The translations under genes and the position numbers were made by a program. A DNA stretch of 64,000 nt from Microbacteriaceae bacterium VKM Ac-2854 (GTDB lineage Bacteria > Actinomycetota > Actinomycetes > Actinomycetales > Microbacteriaceae): the NCBI GenBank assembly GCA_013205085.1, contig JABMLH010000001.1:496001-560000 (forward strand), read 5' to 3'. The number at the start of each line of letters is the position of its first letter. Position 1 is the stretch's first letter. Positions 9,574-55,554 of this stretch are shown here, in pieces. Below the pieces are notes generated by a model that worked only from the letters and a program-made list of their open reading frames with translations, was not told where the DNA came from and did not search any database.

Positions 9574-9588
9574 TGACGACACCCGATG

Positions 9589-9603
9589 ATGTTCCCGGTA
9601 ACA
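9589..9603. promoter_or_regulatory. Putative LacI-family operator (ATGTTCCCGGTAACA)
   Basis: ATGTTCCCGGTAACA is an inverted repeat (TGTT/AACA) around a central CG, the usual shape of LacI-family operators. The identical 15-mer occurs at 14829-14843 before the sugar-binding-protein gene, and 12/14 matches to its 14-bp core TGTTCCCGGTAACA occur at 11614 and 14760. The LacI regulator at 11726 is the obvious candidate binder. Confidence 0.7.
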
Positions 9604-9663
9604 CAGCCGGTCTTCCGCCCCTCCGTCTCTCGGAGGGGAACTGTCTCGATGAGGAGAACAACA

Positions 9664-10293
9664 ATGCACTCGAAGAAGAAGTCGCTGCTGCTGCGCGCAT
9701 CCGTCGCCACTCTCGGCGGCCTGATGCTGGCCGGCGTCGCGACCACCGCCTACGCCGACGACGAGTACGGCAACAGCGACGTGGACGTGAACGTGTCGAT
9801 CACCCCGCTGACCGAGCCGGGCGTGCTCGCGATGAGCGTCGCCGGCACCAGCACGACCCTGACGGAGAACGGCTCCACGCCGACCATCCGCCAGTTCACG
9901 GGCCTGATGCCCACGGTCACCGTCACCGACACCCGCGACGCCGCCGACATCCCCGCCGGAGTCGGCTGGTACGTCGTCGGCTCGTCGAGCGACTTCGTCG
10001 GCACGGCCGGGCAGGACCCGATCGGCGCCGAGTACTTCGGCTGGACCCCGCACCTGATCGACGGCGGCGAGTCCGGACTGGTCGCCGAGGGCGAGCAGGT
10101 CGACACCGCGCTGGACGCCGGGCCCGACAACGTCGGCCTGGTCGACCAGGAGCTGCTGGCGCTCGCGATCGACTCCGGCGAGGCGCAGACCGATGGATCC
10201 TGGACCGCCAACGCCGACCTGTTCCTGAAGACCCCTGCGGACGTCGAGGCCGGCAGCTACGCTTCGGTGCTGACCCTCTCGCTCTTCGAGTAG
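9664..10293 (+). CDS. Secreted WxL-like surface protein
   Basis: I chose ATG 9664, preceded by GAGGAGAACAACA; upstream in-frame starts lack a site and would place the operator inside the gene. The 209-aa product has a signal peptide (LMLAGVATTAYA) and then one beta-rich domain. It carries TVTDTRD, GWYVVGSSSDF and EYFGWTP, matching in order the WxL-type pattern (D-T-R, W-x-L/V, S-D-F, G-W-T-P, then a C-terminal strand AGSYASVLTLSL). The C-terminal 145 residues of the HtaA fusion protein at 48713-50167 have the same blocks. WxL domains attach non-covalently to peptidoglycan and pair with DUF916 partners, and the next gene encodes such a partner. Secreted, probably wall-bound; ligand unknown. 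Confidence 0.72.
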   Translation: MHSKKKSLLLRASVATLGGLMLAGVATTAYADDEYGNSDVDVNVSITPLTEPGVLAMSVAGTSTTLTENGSTPTIRQFTGLMPTVTVTDTRDAADIPAGVGWYVVGSSSDFVGTAGQDPIGAEYFGWTPHLIDGGESGLVAEGEQVDTALDAGPDNVGLVDQELLALAIDSGEAQTDGSWTANADLFLKTPADVEAGSYASVLTLSLFE

Positions 10294-10303
10294 AGCTCCG
10301 CCA

Positions 10304-10331
10304 CCCGGGGTCGGCCGCCGCCGGCCCCGGG
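10304..10331 (+). promoter_or_regulatory. GC-rich intercistronic hairpin between WxL-like and DUF916 genes
   Basis: CCCGGGGTCGGC (10304-10315) pairs with GCCGGCCCCGGG (10320-10331), 12 bp with one G-U and a 4-base loop. No T-run follows, so it is more likely a processing or partial-attenuation element that lowers expression of the second gene. The paralogous locus has a hairpin in the same place (48668-48696). Confidence 0.6.
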
Positions 10332-10353
10332 CACCCCTGACAAGGACGTCACC

Positions 10354-11388
10354 GTGCCCCGCCTCACCCTCCTGCGCTGCCTCACCGCAGCCCTCGTCGC
10401 GCTCATCGCCGCCCCGGTGCTCGCCACCGCGGCCCAGGCGGAGGAGGCGGCGCCGACGCTGACCTGGTCGGTGCGGCCCGCGAGCGAATCCGCTCAGGAC
10501 AAGCGCTCCTGGGTCGAACTCGAGCTCGATCCCGGCGCCTCCGCCGTCGATCACCTGGCGGTGCGCAACCTCAGCGCGGAGGCCGTGACCTTCACCCTCA
10601 CGGCGGCGGACGGCTACTTCACCCCCACCGGACGCTTCAACATGAACGCCGCCGACGTCGAGTCCACCGACGCCGGCACCTGGATCGACGTGCAGGACAC
10701 CGTCACCGTCGATGCGAACGGCACGGCGATCGTGCCCTTCACCGTCACTGTCCCGGAGGTCGTCGAGCCGGGCGACCACGCGGCCGGTATCGCTGCCTCC
10801 GTCCGCTCCGAGCAGGCGAGCGCCGACGGCACCAAGGTCGGCGTCGAGAGCCGCGTCGGCTTCCGGGTGATGACCCGCGTCACCGGCGAGCTGGCTCCCG
10901 CCGCCTCGATCGCGAACGTCGACGCCTCCTACGACCTCTCCTGGAACCCGTTCACGCCCGGCTCGATGACCGTCTCCTTCGACGTGCTGAACGACGGCAA
11001 CGCCCGCTTCACCGCCGCCGGCGACGTCTCCGCTGCGGGTGCGAAGGTGAGCTACCCGAGCGCGGACGAGACCACCCAGGAACTCCTACCCGGCGACTTC
11101 CGCCGGATCACGGTGCAGCTCGACGACGTCTGGCCGCTCTTCGCGCTGTCGACCGATGTGCTGATGACGCCGACCGTGATCACGGAGGACGACTCGCTCC
11201 TGATCGCCGAATCCGCGACCGCCAACACCGTGGTGTGGGCGATGCCGTGGCCGCAGCTGCTGGTGCTGCTCGGCGTCGCGCTGATCGTGCTCGCCCTGCT
11301 CGGTGGGCGGATCCGCTCCAAGCGCCGCCTCGACGCGCTGCTCGCCGAGGCGCGCGCCGAGGGCGCCCGCGCGGTGGAGCGCGTCTAG
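10354..11388 (+). CDS. DUF916-type (WxL-interacting) membrane protein
   Basis: GTG start at 10354 after CAAGGACGTCACC. The 344-aa product has a signal peptide (LVALIAAPVLATAAQA), an ectodomain typical of DUF916-type proteins (WSVRPAS near 33; an immunoglobulin-like fold with DPGASAVDHLAVRN and later PGDHAAGIAASVRS), a second beta-domain (about 195-285), one C-terminal membrane helix (LLVLLGVALIVLALLGG) and a basic cytosolic tail. In Firmicutes the homologous protein binds WxL proteins and peptidoglycan and belongs to cell-surface complexes. It is co-transcribed with the WxL-like gene and closely followed by an LPATG mini-ORF. A paralogue is at 47638-48615. Confidence 0.8.
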   Translation: MPRLTLLRCLTAALVALIAAPVLATAAQAEEAAPTLTWSVRPASESAQDKRSWVELELDPGASAVDHLAVRNLSAEAVTFTLTAADGYFTPTGRFNMNAADVESTDAGTWIDVQDTVTVDANGTAIVPFTVTVPEVVEPGDHAAGIAASVRSEQASADGTKVGVESRVGFRVMTRVTGELAPAASIANVDASYDLSWNPFTPGSMTVSFDVLNDGNARFTAAGDVSAAGAKVSYPSADETTQELLPGDFRRITVQLDDVWPLFALSTDVLMTPTVITEDDSLLIAESATANTVVWAMPWPQLLVLLGVALIVLALLGGRIRSKRRLDALLAEARAEGARAVERV

Positions 11389-22923: not shown

Positions 22924-23039
22924 CCACGGTCTGCCGGGTGAGCGTGCCGAAACCACGGTCTGCTGGTTGAGCGTGCCGAAACCACGGTCTGCTGGTTGAG
23001 CGTGCCGAAACCACGGTCTGCTGGTTGAGCGTGCCGAAA
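22924..23039. repeat. Four tandem 29-bp units (CTGGTTGAGCGTGCCGAAA type)
   Basis: Units at 22924-22952, 22953-22981, 22982-23010 and 23011-23039. The last three are identical and the first differs at two positions. Each contains TGGTTGAGCGTGCCGAAACC, a variant of the opposed repeats found elsewhere in this window, here all in one orientation. The array starts three bases after the helR stop and lies between convergent helR and nhaA. Confidence 0.95.
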
Positions 23040-23093
23040 CCACCATCCCTATACGAAACCATCATCCCTGTAGACCGGCGGCCCCGCCCGAAT

Positions 23094-46049: not shown

Positions 46050-46130
46050 CGGAAATGCAGGATGCGCGCCCGAGTTGACGTGCGCATGCGCGTGTTCCGC
46101 CCTCATTTCCGTCCTGGTCCTGCATTTCCG
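46050..46130. repeat. Long-armed inverted repeat (GGAAATGCAGG family), copy 1
   Basis: CGGAAATGCAGGA (46050-46062) pairs with TCCTGCATTTCCG (46118-46130). The interior contains TGTTCCGCCCTCATTTCCGT, also present inside the related element at 53111-53212, so the two are copies of one element. Confidence 0.88.
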
Positions 46131-47637: not shown

Positions 47638-48615
47638 TCACTGCCGCGGATCGACCGGAGAAGTCGAGGCGGCCCGCCGCCGCGCCAGCAGCAGCACGAC
47701 CACCGCGACGCCCGCGACCGCCAGCAGGATCAGCAGCGCCGCGAACGGCACCGCCGGCACCGTGAACTCCGCGCGGACCGGGTCGAGCGTCGCCGCGCCG
47801 AAGCCCACGCTGCTGGGCTGCACCTGCACGGCCCCCGTCAGCCAGAGCAGGGCACCGATGCCGTCGAGGCGCTCGCTGACGTCGATGGTCGAGCCCGGCA
47901 GCACCTCCGGCAGCTGCACCGGAGCGGAGTTCACCGGCACGATGCCGAACGGCCCCGCGACCACGGCGTCCGCGATCGCGGTGACCCGGGTGTTGCCCGT
48001 GTTCTGCAGCGTGTAGCCGACGCTGACGAAGCCGACCGCCAACGGATTCCAGCTGCCGGAGAAGCTGACCTGCGGATCCGACACCTCGACAGCCGGCACC
48101 AGCTCGCCCGAGACGCGGATCTGCATCCGGCTGCCGAGCCGCCGATCCACCTGCACCTGCGCGGCCGCGTCGTCGGTGACCAGCGAGGTGACGATGCCGG
48201 CCGGATGATCGCCCGGGCGCGCATCCGCCGGCACCGTCACCGTGAACGGCACCGACTGCGCCTCACCGGGGTCGAGTGTCAGCGTGCTCGTGCCCAACGC
48301 GATCCAGGTGCCGGCGTCCGCGGAGGCAGTGCCCGAGGTGAGCACGTCGATGTTGCCCTCGCGGGTGGTGAAGGCGTCCGCCGGGTAGATTCTCAGCGCG
48401 AGCGCCGTCGCGCCGTCGTTGCGCACGGTGATCGCGTCGGTGACGGAGGTGCCGGGATCGACCGCGTAGTCGAAGTTGGCACGGGTGCCGCCGTCGGCTG
48501 CGGCGGTGGGGCCGATGCTCCAGCCGGCGCTGTCGGCTGCGGCGGAGGCGACGGGCGCGAGGGCCCCGGCGGAGACGACGAGGGCGAGGATCAGAGCGGC
48601 GGAGGCGCGATGCAT
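47638..48615 (-). CDS. DUF916-type (WxL-interacting) membrane protein, second copy
   Basis: 325 aa from ATG 48615 (signal peptide LILALVVSAGALAPVASA). Ectodomain follows the paralogue at 10354: WSIGPTAA near the start, VDPGTSVTDAITVRN, then PGDHPAGIVTSLV. One C-terminal membrane helix (ALLILLAVAGVAVVVLLLA) and a basic tail. It follows the HtaA/WxL-like gene, separated by a hairpin, and is presumably its surface partner. No LPxTG mini-ORF follows this copy. Confidence 0.8.
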   Translation of the reverse strand: MHRASAALILALVVSAGALAPVASAAADSAGWSIGPTAAADGGTRANFDYAVDPGTSVTDAITVRNDGATALALRIYPADAFTTREGNIDVLTSGTASADAGTWIALGTSTLTLDPGEAQSVPFTVTVPADARPGDHPAGIVTSLVTDDAAAQVQVDRRLGSRMQIRVSGELVPAVEVSDPQVSFSGSWNPLAVGFVSVGYTLQNTGNTRVTAIADAVVAGPFGIVPVNSAPVQLPEVLPGSTIDVSERLDGIGALLWLTGAVQVQPSSVGFGAATLDPVRAEFTVPAVPFAALLILLAVAGVAVVVLLLARRRAASTSPVDPRQ

Positions 48616-48667
48616 AAGGGGTCCGGATTCGTGGGGTGGACGCAGGGAGTGGGGTGGACGCAGGGAA

Positions 48668-48696
48668 GGGGACGGCACCGGAACGGCGCCGTCCCC
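48668..48696 (-). promoter_or_regulatory. Intercistronic hairpin between HtaA/WxL-like and DUF916 genes
   Basis: GGGGACGGC (48668-48676) pairs with GCCGTCCCC (48688-48696), with no T-run. It has the same position and kind as the hairpin at 10304-10331 in the first locus. Confidence 0.6.
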
Positions 48697-48712
48697 GAGG
48701 ACTCGCGAGTGA

Positions 48713-50167
48713 CTAGCCGAGGGCCGTGATCGTCAGCGTCGCGGAGTAGTTGCCCGCCGGAGTGGTGGTGGGCAGCACCAGCGAGAGCGCGGCGTCGACG
48801 TCGGCGCTCGCCGCGGCGGTGCTGGATGCGAGCGTCGCGGACTCGGCCAGGCCGGCTCCGCTCTGCAGCGTCGAGGCGACGGCGCTGCCGGCGGTGACGC
48901 CGGTGCCGGCGTTGCTCACCGACGGCGTCCAGCCGAGGTAACCGGCGCTGAAGCCGCCGGAGGCGGAGGCGAAGTCGCTGACCGAGCCCGAGACGCTCCA
49001 GGTGTACGGCGAGGTTCCGCCGGCACGTGTGTCGGTCACGGTGATCGTGTTCAGCGCGCCCGCAGCGGTGAAAGTGGAGCCGGCCTGCACGGCCGTGCCC
49101 AACGAGACCGCCGAGGTGCTGGCGAACGCCCAGCCGAAGCTGCCGGTCGGGGGTGCCGCGACGTCCGGAACCGTCACGGTGATGTCCTGCTCACCGTCGC
49201 CGGGGGTCTCCGGCTCGGTCGGCTCCTCCGGGTCGGTCGGGTCGACCGGCGTGACCGCGAGGCTGTACGCGACGGAGAGGGGAGCGGCGGGCTTGGCCGC
49301 GTCGCGCGATCCGCCCGAGCTGTACCAGTAGCTGCTCTGACCGGTCAGGTTCTGGAAGTCGACGAAGCCTTGCGGGAACGAACCCCAGCTGCTGCCGGTG
49401 GTCGACTGCGCGGTGCCGGTGGTGGTCACGGCGACGCCGAGGTAGTCGGGCGTGACGGTGAAGCCGTCGTCGTCGGCGTTCGCGCCGGTGATGTCGGCGA
49501 GCACGATCTCCTGGGCGGGGATGGTGACCCACTGGGTCTGGTCCTCCATGGAGGTTCCGTAGCCGCTGGCGGTGGCGGTCAGCTGTCCGTTGCCGTTCGC
49601 ATCCAGCTCGAGCGTCGGGTTGGTGGCGCTCCAGTAGGTGAGGCCGCCGTAGAACGCGACCGTGAAGGAGCCGGTCCAGTTGATCTCGGTGGAGCCGTCG
49701 GCGGCGGTGGCGCCGGTGCCGTTCGAGAACACCACGGCGTTCTTGGTGAGCGAGGTCGTCGACGCCGCGGAGACCGGGGTGCCGGCCGGCGTCTGGCACT
49801 TGGTGGCCCAGGTGGTGGGCACCATCGCGCCGGACGCGTTGGGCTTGACGATCGCGACGTTGCCCGCCGAGTTGGAGTAGAAGCCGTCGGCCTCCGACCA
49901 GACCCGGGAGGAGCCGGTGTTGCCGGCCGTGCCCGCGCTGAGGAAGTTGCAGCCGCCGAAGAACGCGCCGCCTCCCGCCTCATCGCTCATTCCCCAGGTG
50001 AAGGAGGCGTCGGTGATGCTACCGGCGGAGGGCGCGGCGGAGGCGGCGGGAGCGGCGATCAGCGCGCCGCCGATCAGGGCTGCCGTGCCGGCGAGAACCG
50101 CGGCGCTGCGCAGCGCTCGGGTGCGCCGGCGCGGTCGTGATGAATCCAAAAGAAAGGTTCCTCTCAT
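48713..50167 (-). CDS. Secreted HtaA (heme-binding) protein with C-terminal WxL-like domain
   Basis: 484 aa. A signal peptide ends near residue 45 (LIGGALIAAPAASA). Residues about 48-300 form an HtaA-type domain: FTVAFYGGLTYWSATNPTLE, ASGYGTSMED and FVDFQ...SYWYSSGG, with a final KPAAPLSVAYSL strand. A Pro/Glu linker (DPEEPTEPETPGDGE) leads to a WxL-like domain (about 340-484) with TVTDTRAGG, YTWSVSGSVSDF, YLGWTPSV and AGNYSATLTITALG, matching the 9664 protein block by block. HtaA domains take up heme in corynebacteria; the WxL part should bind it to the wall. The ATG at 50167 lacks a ribosome site; AGAGGA downstream would fit a TTG start near 50149. Confidence 0.78.
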   Translation of the reverse strand: MRGTFLLDSSRPRRRTRALRSAAVLAGTAALIGGALIAAPAASAAPSAGSITDASFTWGMSDEAGGGAFFGGCNFLSAGTAGNTGSSRVWSEADGFYSNSAGNVAIVKPNASGAMVPTTWATKCQTPAGTPVSAASTTSLTKNAVVFSNGTGATAADGSTEINWTGSFTVAFYGGLTYWSATNPTLELDANGNGQLTATASGYGTSMEDQTQWVTIPAQEIVLADITGANADDDGFTVTPDYLGVAVTTTGTAQSTTGSSWGSFPQGFVDFQNLTGQSSYWYSSGGSRDAAKPAAPLSVAYSLAVTPVDPTDPEEPTEPETPGDGEQDITVTVPDVAAPPTGSFGWAFASTSAVSLGTAVQAGSTFTAAGALNTITVTDTRAGGTSPYTWSVSGSVSDFASASGGFSAGYLGWTPSVSNAGTGVTAGSAVASTLQSGAGLAESATLASSTAAASADVDAALSLVLPTTTPAGNYSATLTITALG

Positions 50168-50174
50168 GGCGGGT

Positions 50175-50193
50175 TAAGGGTCGCCTTACCTTA
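50175..50193. promoter_or_regulatory. DtxR/IdeR-like iron box
   Basis: On the minus strand the site reads TAAGGTAAGGCGACCCTTA, matching the DtxR consensus TTAGGTTAGGCTAACCTAA at 14 of 19 positions by hand count. It lies 8 bases upstream of the HtaA/WxL-like start codon and between two divergent genes. Confidence 0.6.
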
Positions 50194-50204
50194 CTGAGGG
50201 TGTA

Positions 50205-50223
50205 CTTACTAAGGCAAACCTTA
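50205..50223. promoter_or_regulatory. Second, weaker DtxR/IdeR-like box
   Basis: CTTACTAAGGCAAACCTTA matches the DtxR consensus at 12 of 19 positions, with a good right half (AGGC-AACCT-A) and an internal TAAGG/CCTTA palindrome. It is about 84 bases from the flavoprotein start and may serve that gene. Confidence 0.45.
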
Positions 50224-50306
50224 TGTCTACGTTTTTGAGGAGGGAGGATGCTTGCCGCAGGCCCGACCCTGGGCCCGAATCGCACGTCTCGAAGGGGAGC
50301 TTCGCC

Positions 50307-52061
50307 ATGCCTGAACGCCGTCTGTCCACCTCGGTCCTCGTGATCGGAACGGGAGGATCCGGCCTGCGCGCCGCCATCGAACTGGCTGAGCGCGGCGTCG
50401 ACGTGATCGCCCTGGGCAAGCGGCCCAAGGCGGACGCGCACACCTCGCTCGCGGCCGGCGGGATCAACGCGGCGCTCGCCACGATGGACGAGGAGGACTC
50501 GTGGCAGCAGCACGCTGCCGACACGATCCTGGAGAGCTACCACCTCGCCGACCCGCGCACCGTGCAGATCGTGACCGAAGGCGCCGCCCGTGGGATCGAG
50601 GACCTCGAGCGCTACGGGATGCCGTTCGCTCGTGAGGACGACGGGCGGATCAGTCAGCGCTTCTTCGGGGCGCACACCTTCCGTCGCACCGCCTTCGCGG
50701 GCGACTACACGGGGCTCGAGATCCAGCGCACGCTGGTGAACCGGGCCGCCCAACTGGAGATCCCGATTCTGGACCGGGTCTACGTCACGCGCATCCTGAC
50801 CGATGCGGACGGCGCGGTCTTCGGCGCCTACGGTTTCGACCTGGAGACGGGCGAGCGCTACCTGATCCACGCGGATGCGGTCATCCTCGCGGCCGGCGGC
50901 CACAACCGGATCTGGCGGCGCACCTCCTCCCGGCGCGACGAGAACACGGGCGACTCGTTCCGCTTGGCCGTGATGGCGGGCGGCAGGCTGCGCGATCCGG
51001 AGCTGGTGCAGTTCCATCCCTCGGGCATCCTCGAGCCCGAATCCGCGGCGGGCACGCTGATCTCGGAGGCGGCGCGCGGCGAAGGCGGCATCCTGCGCAA
51101 CGGCCTGGGCGAGCGCTTTATGCACCGCTACGACCCGGAACGGCAGGAGCTCTCGACCCGCGACCGGGTCGCGCTGGCCTGCTACACCGAGATCGCGGAG
51201 GGCCGCGGCACCCCCAACGGCGGCGTCTGGCTCGACGTCTCGCACCTGCCGCGGGAGACCATCATGAAGCGGCTGCCGCGGGTGTACCAGACCATGCTCG
51301 AGCTGCAGATGCTCGACATCACCACCGATCCGATCGAGATCGCGCCGACCGCGCACTACTCGATGGGCGGCGTCTGGGTGCGACCGGAGGATCACGGCAC
51401 CGGCGTCGACGGGCTCTGGGCGATCGGCGAGGCGTCCTCCGGCCTGCACGGCGCGAACCGGCTCGGCGGCAACTCGCTGATCGAGCTGCTGGTGTTCGGG
51501 CGGATCGTGGGTGAGGCGGCGGCGGCGTACTCCGCCGCGCTGCCGGCGCAGCGGCGTTCGGCCGCCGCGATCGCCGAGGCGCGCGGCGAGGTGGACGGGC
51601 TGCTCGCCTCCGATGGGCCCGAGAACGTGCGGGCCTTGCAGCGCGCGATCCGCGACACGATGACGCGGCATGCGGGGGTGGTCCGTTCGGAGGACGGCCT
51701 GCGCCAGGGGCTCGCGGAGCTGGACGCGATCGAGCTGCGGATGCGCGACATCGGCGTGCATCCCGACATCGCCGGGTACCAGGACCTCGCGCACGCCTTC
51801 GACCTGAAGAGCGCGGTGCTCGCCGCCCGGGCCACGCTCGACGCCGCGTTGGAGCGCCGCGAGACCCGCGGCTGCCACAACCGCTCCGACTTCCCGGAGA
51901 CGGATCCGGCGCTGCAGCTGAACCTGGTCTGGTCGCTCGAGAGCATCGGCGACGGGCCGACCCGGGGCAGCATCAGTCGCGAGAGCATCCCCGAGGTGCC
52001 CGCCGAGATCGCGGCGCTGATGCGCGAGGAGGTGTCGACGGCGGGCAAGCTCGTGGAGTAG
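50307..52061 (+). CDS. Orphan SdhA/FrdA/NadB-type FAD-binding oxidoreductase
   Basis: ATG at 50307 is set by GAAGGGGAGCTTCGCC; an upstream ATG at 50223 would put the iron box in the coding part. 584 aa: FAD-binding VLVIGTGGSGLRAAIELAER at the start, SLAAGGINAA, HTFRRTAFAGDYTG, QFHPSGI, the substrate-site RGEGGILRN, TAHYSMGGVWV, and GLHGANRLGGNSL. This is the succinate dehydrogenase/fumarate reductase/L-aspartate oxidase family. No nadA, nadC, sdhB or membrane subunits adjoin. It is divergent from the HtaA gene across DtxR-like boxes, so a role in iron or heme metabolism, perhaps as a reductase, is possible but only inferred. Confidence 0.85.
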   Translation: MPERRLSTSVLVIGTGGSGLRAAIELAERGVDVIALGKRPKADAHTSLAAGGINAALATMDEEDSWQQHAADTILESYHLADPRTVQIVTEGAARGIEDLERYGMPFAREDDGRISQRFFGAHTFRRTAFAGDYTGLEIQRTLVNRAAQLEIPILDRVYVTRILTDADGAVFGAYGFDLETGERYLIHADAVILAAGGHNRIWRRTSSRRDENTGDSFRLAVMAGGRLRDPELVQFHPSGILEPESAAGTLISEAARGEGGILRNGLGERFMHRYDPERQELSTRDRVALACYTEIAEGRGTPNGGVWLDVSHLPRETIMKRLPRVYQTMLELQMLDITTDPIEIAPTAHYSMGGVWVRPEDHGTGVDGLWAIGEASSGLHGANRLGGNSLIELLVFGRIVGEAAAAYSAALPAQRRSAAAIAEARGEVDGLLASDGPENVRALQRAIRDTMTRHAGVVRSEDGLRQGLAELDAIELRMRDIGVHPDIAGYQDLAHAFDLKSAVLAARATLDAALERRETRGCHNRSDFPETDPALQLNLVWSLESIGDGPTRGSISRESIPEVPAEIAALMREEVSTAGKLVE

Positions 52062-52101: not shown

Positions 52102-53127
52102 ATGGGAGCGGATGGCGAGCGCGGGGCGGCTCGCCGCCCAACCATCCAGGACGTCGCCGCCGCGGCGGGGGTGTCGCGAGCGCTGGTCTCGATCGTGTTC
52201 CGCGACGTGCCCGGCGCGAGCGAGGCCACGCGGGAGCGGGTGCGGGCGGTCGCGGCGGAGCTCGGTTACCGGCCGGACCGGCGCGCGCAGCTGCTGCGTC
52301 AAGCGCGCAGCGGCGTGATCGGGGTGTCCTTCGCGGTGCACGACGCCTTCCACGCAGAAGTGGTCGAAGCGCTCTACCGCGTGGCGGCCGAGCGCGGATT
52401 CGCGCTGACGCTCTCGGCTGCGACGGCGGATCGTTCCGAGTCGGTCGCGGCGGAGTCGCTGCTGGCGGAGCGCCCGGAGGCGGTCATCCTGCTCGGTACC
52501 GAGATGTCCGCCGCGGGTGCGGAGTCGGTCGCCGCGGCGGTACCGACGGTCATCGTGACCCGCGCGGCCGACCGGATCGACTCCGTGCACACGGATGACC
52601 GCGCGGGTGGCCGCCTCGCCGCGGCGTACGTGATCGGGCTGGGTCATCGCTCGATCTGCTACCTCGATGCGCCGGCGGCCGCCGGCGCGGATGAGCGCCT
52701 CTTCGGCGTCCGAGATGCGGGAGCCGACGTCGAGGTTCTCGCGGCGGGCAACGATGAGGAGGCGGGCGTCCAGGCGGCGACCGCGCTGCTGCAGCGAGCG
52801 GAGTTGCCGACCGCGGTCTTCGCCTTCAATGACCGCTGCGCGATCGGCGTGCTCGACACCTTCCTCCGGGCGGGGGTTCGGGTTCCCGAGGACGTCTCCG
52901 TGATCGGCTACGACGACAGCCGGATCGCGGGGCTCTCCGTGGTTGCGCTGACGACGATCGCGCAGGATGCGGGCGGGCTGGCCGGCCGGGCCCTCGACCT
53001 CGCCGTCGAGCGCATCGCGGCGCCGGATGCGCCCGCGCGCGAGGCCGTGCTGGCACCGAGCCTCGTGGCGCGCGGTACGACGGGGCCGCCGCGGGACGGG
53101 GCTGGCGTCCGCGGAAATGCAGGGTGA
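52102..53127 (+). CDS. LacI-family transcriptional regulator
   Basis: ATG at 52102. 341 aa with LacI helix-turn-helix (TIQDVAAAAGVSRALVSIVF, about 14-33), hinge YRPDRRAQLLRQA, and effector domain (GVIGVSFAVHDAFHAEVVEA; AFNDRCAIGVLDTF; DVSVIGYDDSRIAGLS). Converges on the isomerase/dehydrogenase operon, whose promoter contains an 18-bp palindrome with the CG centre typical of LacI operators, so it probably controls that operon. Confidence 0.9.
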   Translation: MGADGERGAARRPTIQDVAAAAGVSRALVSIVFRDVPGASEATRERVRAVAAELGYRPDRRAQLLRQARSGVIGVSFAVHDAFHAEVVEALYRVAAERGFALTLSAATADRSESVAAESLLAERPEAVILLGTEMSAAGAESVAAAVPTVIVTRAADRIDSVHTDDRAGGRLAAAYVIGLGHRSICYLDAPAAAGADERLFGVRDAGADVEVLAAGNDEEAGVQAATALLQRAELPTAVFAFNDRCAIGVLDTFLRAGVRVPEDVSVIGYDDSRIAGLSVVALTTIAQDAGGLAGRALDLAVERIAAPDAPAREAVLAPSLVARGTTGPPRDGAGVRGNAG

Positions 53128-53212
53128 GCGCGAGAAAGAGCGCTCTCATCCGCATGTTCCGCCCTCACTTCCGTCCTGGCCCTGTATTCGCGTTCTGGCC
53201 CTGCATTTCCGC
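53111..53212. repeat. Long-armed inverted repeat (GGAAATGCAGG family), copy 2
   Basis: GCGGAAATGCAGGG (53111-53124) pairs with CCCTGCATTTCCGC (53199-53212), overlapping the last codons of the LacI gene. The interior repeats TGTTCCGCCCTCACTTCCGT of the 46050 copy; further CTGTATTTCCGC-like partial arms continue to about 53250. Confidence 0.88.
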
Positions 53213-55297: not shown

Positions 55298-55350
55298 GAG
55301 ACTCGCGCACGGGTGGGCGCTCGTCGGAGGTGGGGCGAGAGGGTCCGCCT

Positions 55351-55519
55351 CGGGTGCGTGAGCGCAGCGGTTCCTGTCTCGGGTGCGTGAGCACAGGGGT
55401 TCCTGTCTCGGGTGCGTGAGCACAGGGGTTCCTGTCTCGGGTGCGCGCGCGGGGTTCGTGTCTCGGGTGGGTGCGCGCGGGGATCCTGTCTCGGGTGCGC
55501 GAGCGCAGGGATCCTGTCT
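55351..55519. repeat. Six tandem 26-29-bp units (TGTCTCGGGTGCG type)
   Basis: Units begin at 55351, 55380, 55409, 55438, 55464 and 55492, each starting CGGGTG and ending TGTCT. Units 2 and 3 are identical; others vary by substitution and small deletions. No spacers of equal length, so not CRISPR. The array fills the gap between two transcription units. Confidence 0.92.
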
Positions 55520-55554
55520 CGGAGAGGTGACCACCTCCGCGCGAGCGTAACCGG

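Follow-up and report, generated by a model that had tools for sequence, protein, structure and literature searches.

What does a domain of the HtaA heme-capture family do on a protein that ends in a domain of the type used for display on the cell wall? This question is raised by a locus in Microbacteriaceae bacterium VKM Ac-2854, which lies in a 64 kb window (the whole stretch of DNA analysed here, C1:496001-560000 of a 4.75 Mb genome in 18 contigs). The central gene (48713-50167 of the window, minus strand) is a 484-codon open reading frame (ORF), and its product, referred to here as HtaA-WxL, has an N-terminal divergent HtaA-like domain (N-domain; residues 43-312, 49232-50041), a Pro/Glu-rich linker and a C-terminal WxL-like domain that is a predicted beta-sandwich (C-domain; residues 322-484, 48716-49204), both encoded on the same strand. 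HtaA-type heme capture has been described mainly from Corynebacterium. We think it probable that the locus is an iron-repressed module which captures heme at the cell wall. Heme capture on the wall under iron shortage is likely because the protein carries an HtaA-like domain, iron boxes precede its gene and, in relatives, the gene is linked to a heme importer.

The N-domain had been called HtaA in an initial annotation made from the sequence. The Pfam HtaA family, PF04213, does not match the window protein or its N-domain at E<=1, and the gathering score is not reached. The same family matches 12 of 45 relatives of the N-domain at E<=1, with a best value of 8.7e-8 (the domain from the window is not among them), and it is above the cut-off in three of the five Microbacteriaceae members listed in a class-wide draw. 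A profile-profile comparison (hhalign) of 45 N-domains with 26 Pfam-verified HtaA domains gave a probability of 96.5% and an E value of 8.3e-10 over 85 columns, a larger alignment gave 96.4%, and a PDB match, 9bch (5.7e-4), also supports the HtaA fold. The N-domain was modelled by AlphaFold with a pLDDT of 96.9 and a pTM of 0.93, and a Foldseek search with this model returned HtaA chains from two Corynebacterium species at all of the PDB ranks 1-8. The best of these has an E value of 1.3e-3, a probability of 1.00 and a TM score by target of 0.69, the query being a predicted model and not a crystal structure; no match was as good as E 0.001, and the first unrelated fold appeared at E 0.19 with a probability of 0.02. 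The suspicion that HtaA was a misreading, because Pfam is silent, is overturned by the profile-profile, PDB and fold matches and by the PF04213 matches of the relatives. Judging from profiles and a modelled fold, the N-domain is a divergent HtaA domain, and the original assignment, for which a profile search with the protein itself gave no match, is borne out at the level of family profiles and fold. A local Pfam match to HtaA on contig C11 (11.5 bits) was dropped; it lies inside an ORF that, by eye, resembles a polysaccharide-type tyrosine kinase.

Would such a domain bind heme? In known HtaA domains, the axial Tyr is in helix alpha1 with a Ser four residues earlier (S-x3-Y), a helper His or Tyr is in the beta6-beta7 loop and a propionate-binding Tyr is in the alpha2-beta11 loop (PMC12494546). 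The N-domain alignment (A5) consists of 127 of 151 stretches plus the sequence from the window, four stretches with stops being left out. When the alpha1 segment is placed by eye on a W-G motif against the known domains, the axial Tyr has no conserved counterpart in residues ~56-81, where the best Tyr is found in 53 of 128 relatives, and Glu63 (123/128) falls, in the same placement, where the known domains have a propionate-binding Ser. Cys73 and Cys124 (117/128 each) form a conserved pair that is new relative to the known domains. Tyr173, in an FYGG loop that hhalign puts against the HtaA helper-residue loop, is invariant (128/128), and Tyr280 (126/128) and Trp281 (127/128) are conserved downstream of a predicted helix, 224-233.

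One way to explain this pattern is that the HtaA-fold domain no longer binds heme and has another role, such as docking of hemoproteins, bridging of HtaA proteins or binding of another tetrapyrrole or an iron complex. The missing axial Tyr, the Glu at the propionate position and the new Cys pair would all fit such a loss. However, the invariant Tyr173 in the helper-residue loop, the nearly invariant Tyr280-Trp281 and the presence in these loci of an HmuT protein with conserved heme ligands (see below) would be hard to account for, and we regard the loss of heme binding as unlikely. From the pattern of conservation, it is plausible that the N-domain binds heme via another ligand arrangement, which would be needed because the alpha1 Tyr is not conserved while Tyr173 and Tyr280-Trp281 are kept.

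The neighbourhood of the gene was compared in other bacteria. Genome contigs were scanned with two N-domain patterns; of the 140 stretches found, 123 were relatives, and the best 80 were kept, which amount to 72 loci. The set includes Labedella, Herbiconiux, Subtercola, Microbacterium, Gulosibacter, Streptomyces, Cellulomonas, Pseudoclavibacter, Arthrobacter, Tessaracoccus, Brachybacterium and Bifidobacteriaceae. The heme transporter genes hmuTUV are present in 60 of the 72 HtaA-like loci and the C-domain in 56. Both domains are in the same ORF in 52 of these 56 loci, a count that is biased upward because the loci were picked by N-domain patterns, and a DUF916 gene follows within 1.5 kb downstream of the C-domain in 51. 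As for heme uptake, which the initial annotation had proposed as the context and for which it had suggested a co-occurrence analysis, that analysis puts hmuTUV in 47 of the 56 C-domain loci. A contig edge is near at least three of the five loci that have no DUF916 gene and several of the nine that have no hmuT. A tree of N-domains (130 rows, calculated without the very long row L132_13157) requires 10 changes for the 40 fused rows, at least eight of them by well-supported branches, and 36 of the 40 are within one set of 49 rows.

A heme transporter is also present in VKM Ac-2854, on contig C8. A tblastn-type search detected an N-domain paralog (50% identical) there, in an operon that encodes a substrate-binding protein, a FecCD-type permease, an ATPase, a gene of no assigned family and the HtaA-like protein, for which hydropathy predicts a C-terminal membrane helix. 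The suggestion that wall display had taken the place of membrane anchoring is not upheld, since the hmuTUV operon of the same genome encodes this HtaA-like protein, which has a predicted membrane helix. The ATPase passes the NCBIfam cut-off for heme ABC ATPases (283.1 versus 261 bits), and for HmuT the nearest chains are 5az3 and 5b4z-5b51. A His, a Tyr and an Arg are named as heme ligands and hydrogen bond partner in Corynebacterium glutamicum HmuT (PMC4926363), and the aligned positions are kept in 58, 60 and 60 of 60 HmuT homologs, respectively. C8orf4 (L004:3161-4390, plus strand), located between hmuV and the gene for the membrane-anchored HtaA-like protein, is present in most hmuTUV loci. 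It has no Pfam match at E<=0.001 and no NCBIfam match at E<=1e-5, and it is a candidate for a further component of heme uptake.

Is the gene controlled by iron? Two boxes precede it, box 1 at 50175-50193 and box 2, the second of the tandem pair, at 50205-50223. Sites were scored against a 19-nucleotide DtxR/IdeR consensus, with a threshold of 13/19 for locus counts. The two boxes score 14/19 and 12/19, as the initial annotation had claimed, and they are real. Box 1 is the best consensus match in the window; when the window was shuffled 50 times at first order, a score of 14 was attained in one shuffle. A degenerate box pattern finds eight positions in the whole genome (15 strand matches), compared with one for a reversed-pattern control. 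With a Pfam search of box neighbours that covered all eight sites but C1:625010, five of the seven other sites adjoin iron genes, namely hmuT on C8, Peripla_BP_2 with SIP, Peripla_BP_2 with an ABC ATPase, SIP, and a lysine/ornithine monooxygenase with a decarboxylase. The genome encodes two DtxR-family regulators (PF02742).

The boxes also follow the gene in other genomes. A box of at least 13/19 precedes HtaA-WxL in 26 of the 28 cases where the gene heads its unit, both failures having truncated upstream DNA, whereas the figure is 3 of 23 where hmu genes lie upstream on the same strand (the rows being related in both counts, so that a Fisher value for the difference cannot be taken as a real probability); hmuT itself is preceded by such a box in 48 of 60 cases. 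Tandem boxes are present in all six promoters compared (the window, the congener G342 and L084-L087). On the strength of the shuffles, the reversed-pattern control and the difference between unit-head and internal genes, chance is rejected, and a predicted DtxR/IdeR-type box is conserved with the HtaA-WxL gene. It had been proposed that the boxes belong to both divergent genes, HtaA-WxL and a flavoprotein; this does not agree with G342, in which the HtaA-WxL promoter keeps both boxes without the flavoprotein beside it.

How would the protein be held at the wall? Hydropathy indicates a single hydrophobic segment, which is N-terminal, and hydropathy and a motif check of the protein found neither a C-terminal helix nor an LPxTG-like motif; HtaA-WxL is predicted to be secreted. 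The Pfam WxL family, PF13731, matches 14 of 33 C-domain relatives at E<=1 (best 0.0021) and leaves the domain from the window unmatched. The first W-x-[VIL] is kept in 33 of 33 C-domains of one alignment (A4), and in a larger one (A6) the position is W in 49 and F in 8 of 57. The second Trp of the dual Trp-x-Leu motif of WxL proteins is absent, with 0/33 in A4 and 0/57 in A6. The WxL-like tail of the initial annotation is supported by the DUF916 neighbour and, weakly, by family profiles; the second WxL Trp and a direct Pfam match are absent. Searched against PDB sequences, the WxL-like alignment gave a best E value of 0.19. The predicted C-domain model (pLDDT 94.9) has its best PDB matches among pilin-type and other surface-fibre beta-sandwiches (best E 0.012), with TM scores by query of 0.27-0.45 in the first 14 rows. 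In addition, 23 small loci have the C-domain only, with no HtaA-like domain, and a DUF916 gene is downstream in 17 of them. Because such HtaA-free loci exist, and most have DUF916 downstream, the C-domain is, by this pattern, a general display module.

These last results could also be taken to mean that adhesion or a structural role in the wall is the main function of HtaA-WxL, whose iron regulation would be happenstance and whose linkage to heme would reflect shared regulation. The pilin-type matches of the C-domain model and the HtaA-free WxL-like paralogs beside DUF916 genes would agree with this. However, the HtaA fold is in the same protein, hmuTUV accompanies most of the C-domain loci and the iron boxes track the HtaA-WxL promoter, all of which makes a mainly adhesive or structural role very unlikely.

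The gene downstream of HtaA-WxL (47638-48678, minus strand) encodes the DUF916 partner, a protein with a WxLIP peptidoglycan-binding domain. Its identity, also claimed in the initial annotation, is confirmed by PF06030 with 33.9 bits versus a cut-off of 27.3, and hhalign against Bacillota DUF916 proteins gave 95.7%. The DUF916 alignment A9 consists of 39 of 49 stretches plus the sequence from the window. Pfam found no DUF3324 match in it at E<=1. A hydrophobic segment, 301-337, is a predicted C-terminal membrane helix by hydropathy. DUF916-DUF3324 proteins are reported to bind WxL, which a hairpin of DUF916 is predicted to enter (PMC10599100); the pilin-like fold modelled for the C-domain would fit strand pairing with DUF916. 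Firmicutes hold more than 91% of 938 WxL sequences (PMC9772566). Elsewhere in the window, at ~9586-11388 on the plus strand, a second WxL-like gene, without an HtaA domain, is paired with a DUF916 gene of its own; the DUF916 protein of this pair is 35% identical to the one beside HtaA-WxL.

Divergent from HtaA-WxL is the flavoprotein gene (50223-52061, plus strand). It belongs to the SdhA/NadB superfamily, as the initial annotation had recognised, with FAD_binding_2 at 4.3e-84 and Succ_DH_flav_C at 3.9e-18. Its best solved chain is succinate dehydrogenase subunit A, 7d6v; it is below the NCBIfam cut-offs of every equivalog among the best 25 of 98 matches, no SdhB-like neighbour was seen and hydropathy gave no signal peptide-like segment. 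Its start is likely to be ATG 50307, because homologs align from residue 3. The gene is present in 50 of 199 family genomes at E<=1e-120 (49 besides its own; 70-87% identical), and a LysR gene is directly divergent from it in 11 of 15 loci of relatives and ~4 kb away in one. This LysR partner is absent from the VKM Ac-2854 genome at E<=1e-40. An element resembling TGCATTGGAGTAAT recurs before the flavoprotein gene of many relatives (L157, L158, L160 and L161 among them) and is absent in the window; the divergent LysR regulator probably binds there.

The pairing of the two genes is not conserved. None of the 72 HtaA-like loci has the flavoprotein nearby, and the same is true of 20 further, overlapping regions. 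Among 15 genomes of the genus, 12 have the flavoprotein and two have full HtaA-WxL. The congener G342 has both, 345 kb apart, with HtaA-WxL adjoining the hmu locus and the LysR gene adjoining the flavoprotein. A blastn alignment of window 48715-50222 with the G342 cassette (L223 13133-11618; 78% identity) extends across both boxes as far as 50222, which places a homology breakpoint at 50222-50223, directly before the flavoprotein leader. Because the genes are unlinked in G342, homology stops at 50222 and the LysR gene is lost, the pairing is, by genome comparison, young. The view that the flavoprotein acts on the captured heme or iron, by reducing or processing it, and is under joint control with HtaA-WxL from shared boxes has in its favour the divergent arrangement across two boxes and the loss of the usual LysR regulator; however, given the empty count over the 72 loci, the unlinking in G342, the usual LysR pairing, the breakpoint, a box of at least 13/19 upstream of only 2 of 29 relatives and no export signal, we find it hardly credible. 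The flavoprotein looks like a chance neighbour with no conserved place in the heme module, and the claim that it is a functional partner is abandoned. Because its usual regulator is gone from the genome, iron control of the flavoprotein in VKM Ac-2854 is possible, as a captured and not an ancestral trait.

The domain architecture, the neighbourhoods, the conserved boxes and the HmuT ligand residues, together with the predicted fold of the N-domain, are the observations from which we infer heme as the ligand, docking to the wall, DtxR binding and the direction of transfer. In the heme-capture module that we favour, HtaA-WxL would be secreted and its WxL-like domain, held by the co-transcribed and membrane-anchored DUF916 protein, would present the HtaA-fold domain at the cell wall. 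The membrane-anchored HtaA paralog and HmuT would take over the captured heme and HmuUV would import it; all of these proteins are encoded on contig C8. DtxR/IdeR with Fe(II) on the tandem boxes would switch the gene off when iron is plentiful. Presumably, a rearrangement put the flavoprotein beside the HtaA-WxL promoter; it would have lost its own LysR control and may now be iron-regulated, outside of heme capture. A wider proposal, which we offer only tentatively, is that a second, so far unrecognised class of HtaA-fold heme receptors occurs across many genera of actinomycetes. In this class, the Tyr173 loop would have taken over the axial ligand from helix alpha1, donor-strand-like pairing with membrane-anchored DUF916 would latch an incomplete WxL-like sandwich to the wall, and heme would be relayed from wall to membrane to HmuT.

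Several results weigh against heme capture at the wall. The 484-codon protein has no direct Pfam or NCBIfam match to HtaA, and neither it nor its C-domain has one to WxL. Furthermore, hhalign of the C-domain against three Bacillota WxL sequences taken from plasmids, two of them nearly identical, gave 56.5% or 12.5%, depending on the alignment used. The unconserved alpha1 Tyr and the upward bias of the fusion count have been described above. In VKM Ac-2854 itself, the HtaA-WxL/DUF916 pair is not linked to hmuTUV. As for the boxes, one (C11:777371-777389, L225:7372-7390) adjoins a Peripla_BP_4 gene of the sugar type, with no iron gene identified there, one site was outside of the family search, and the three operon-internal HtaA-WxL genes noted above still have boxes.

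All three ORFs described in the initial annotation are present, with the coordinates and strands given here. The true start of HtaA-WxL is likely to be TTG 50149 (478 amino acids) and not ATG 50167, because of the N-termini of its orthologs, which are 51-74% identical, and an AGAGGA stretch. Rfam and tRNA scans of the window gave no match. Two direct copies (46050-46126 and 53112-53188; 78% identical over 77 nucleotides), 7 kb apart, flank the regulator, DUF916, HtaA-WxL, flavoprotein and LacI genes and could bear on rearrangement. Tandem arrays of 29-nucleotide units are present at 55349-55522 (6.2 copies) and 22924-23043 (4.1 copies).

HtaA joined with WxL was not found in the open-access PubMed Central (PMC) literature, subscription papers being outside of the search, and DUF916 was found there together with heme for Carnobacterium only. 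As far as the open-access literature goes, the HtaA-WxL architecture and its conserved context are new. Tat-exported, tail-anchored HtaA proteins have been described (PMC10924467), and a Leucobacter genome, also of the Microbacteriaceae, is reported to have hmuTUV with htaABC apparently missing (PMC6868719). A divergent HtaA form that is invisible to Pfam resides in hmuTUV loci of many genera; therefore, heme collection by bacteria that have hmuTUV and lack htaABC becomes directly testable. The results would also carry the principle of WxL/DUF916 display over from Bacillota to Actinomycetota, where it would serve heme uptake, and they provide an example of a natural HtaA domain that lacks the known axial Tyr.

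The mechanism would thus be a variant of Corynebacterium HtaA heme uptake, combined with display of the WxL/DUF916 type. Like the CR domains (PF04213) of Corynebacterium HtaA and ChtA, HtaA-WxL has the HtaA fold, genes beside hmuTUV and DtxR-type boxes upstream. It differs from them in a sequence that is beyond the reach of Pfam, in the unconserved alpha1 axial Tyr, in its conserved Cys pair and in its fusion to a WxL-like domain, where the Corynebacterium proteins end in a membrane helix. The flavoprotein resembles the SdhA-type flavoproteins (succinate dehydrogenase, fumarate reductase and L-aspartate oxidase) in its FAD_binding_2 and Succ_DH_flav_C domains; unlike them, it is below the listed NCBIfam equivalog cut-offs, has no SdhB-like neighbour in sight and is usually paired with LysR. 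The hmuTUV genes are in the same order as in Corynebacterium, substrate-binding protein, permease and ATPase, and HmuT keeps its heme-ligand residues; the divergent HtaA-like proteins and the conserved, family-less C8orf4 alongside set these loci apart. Finally, the C-terminal domain followed by a DUF916 gene is the arrangement of the WxL/WxLIP clusters, which are mostly from Bacillota (PMC10599100, PMC9772566), whereas here the second WxL Trp is absent, no DUF3324 was found and the protein, encoded in a heme locus, carries an HtaA-fold domain as its cargo.

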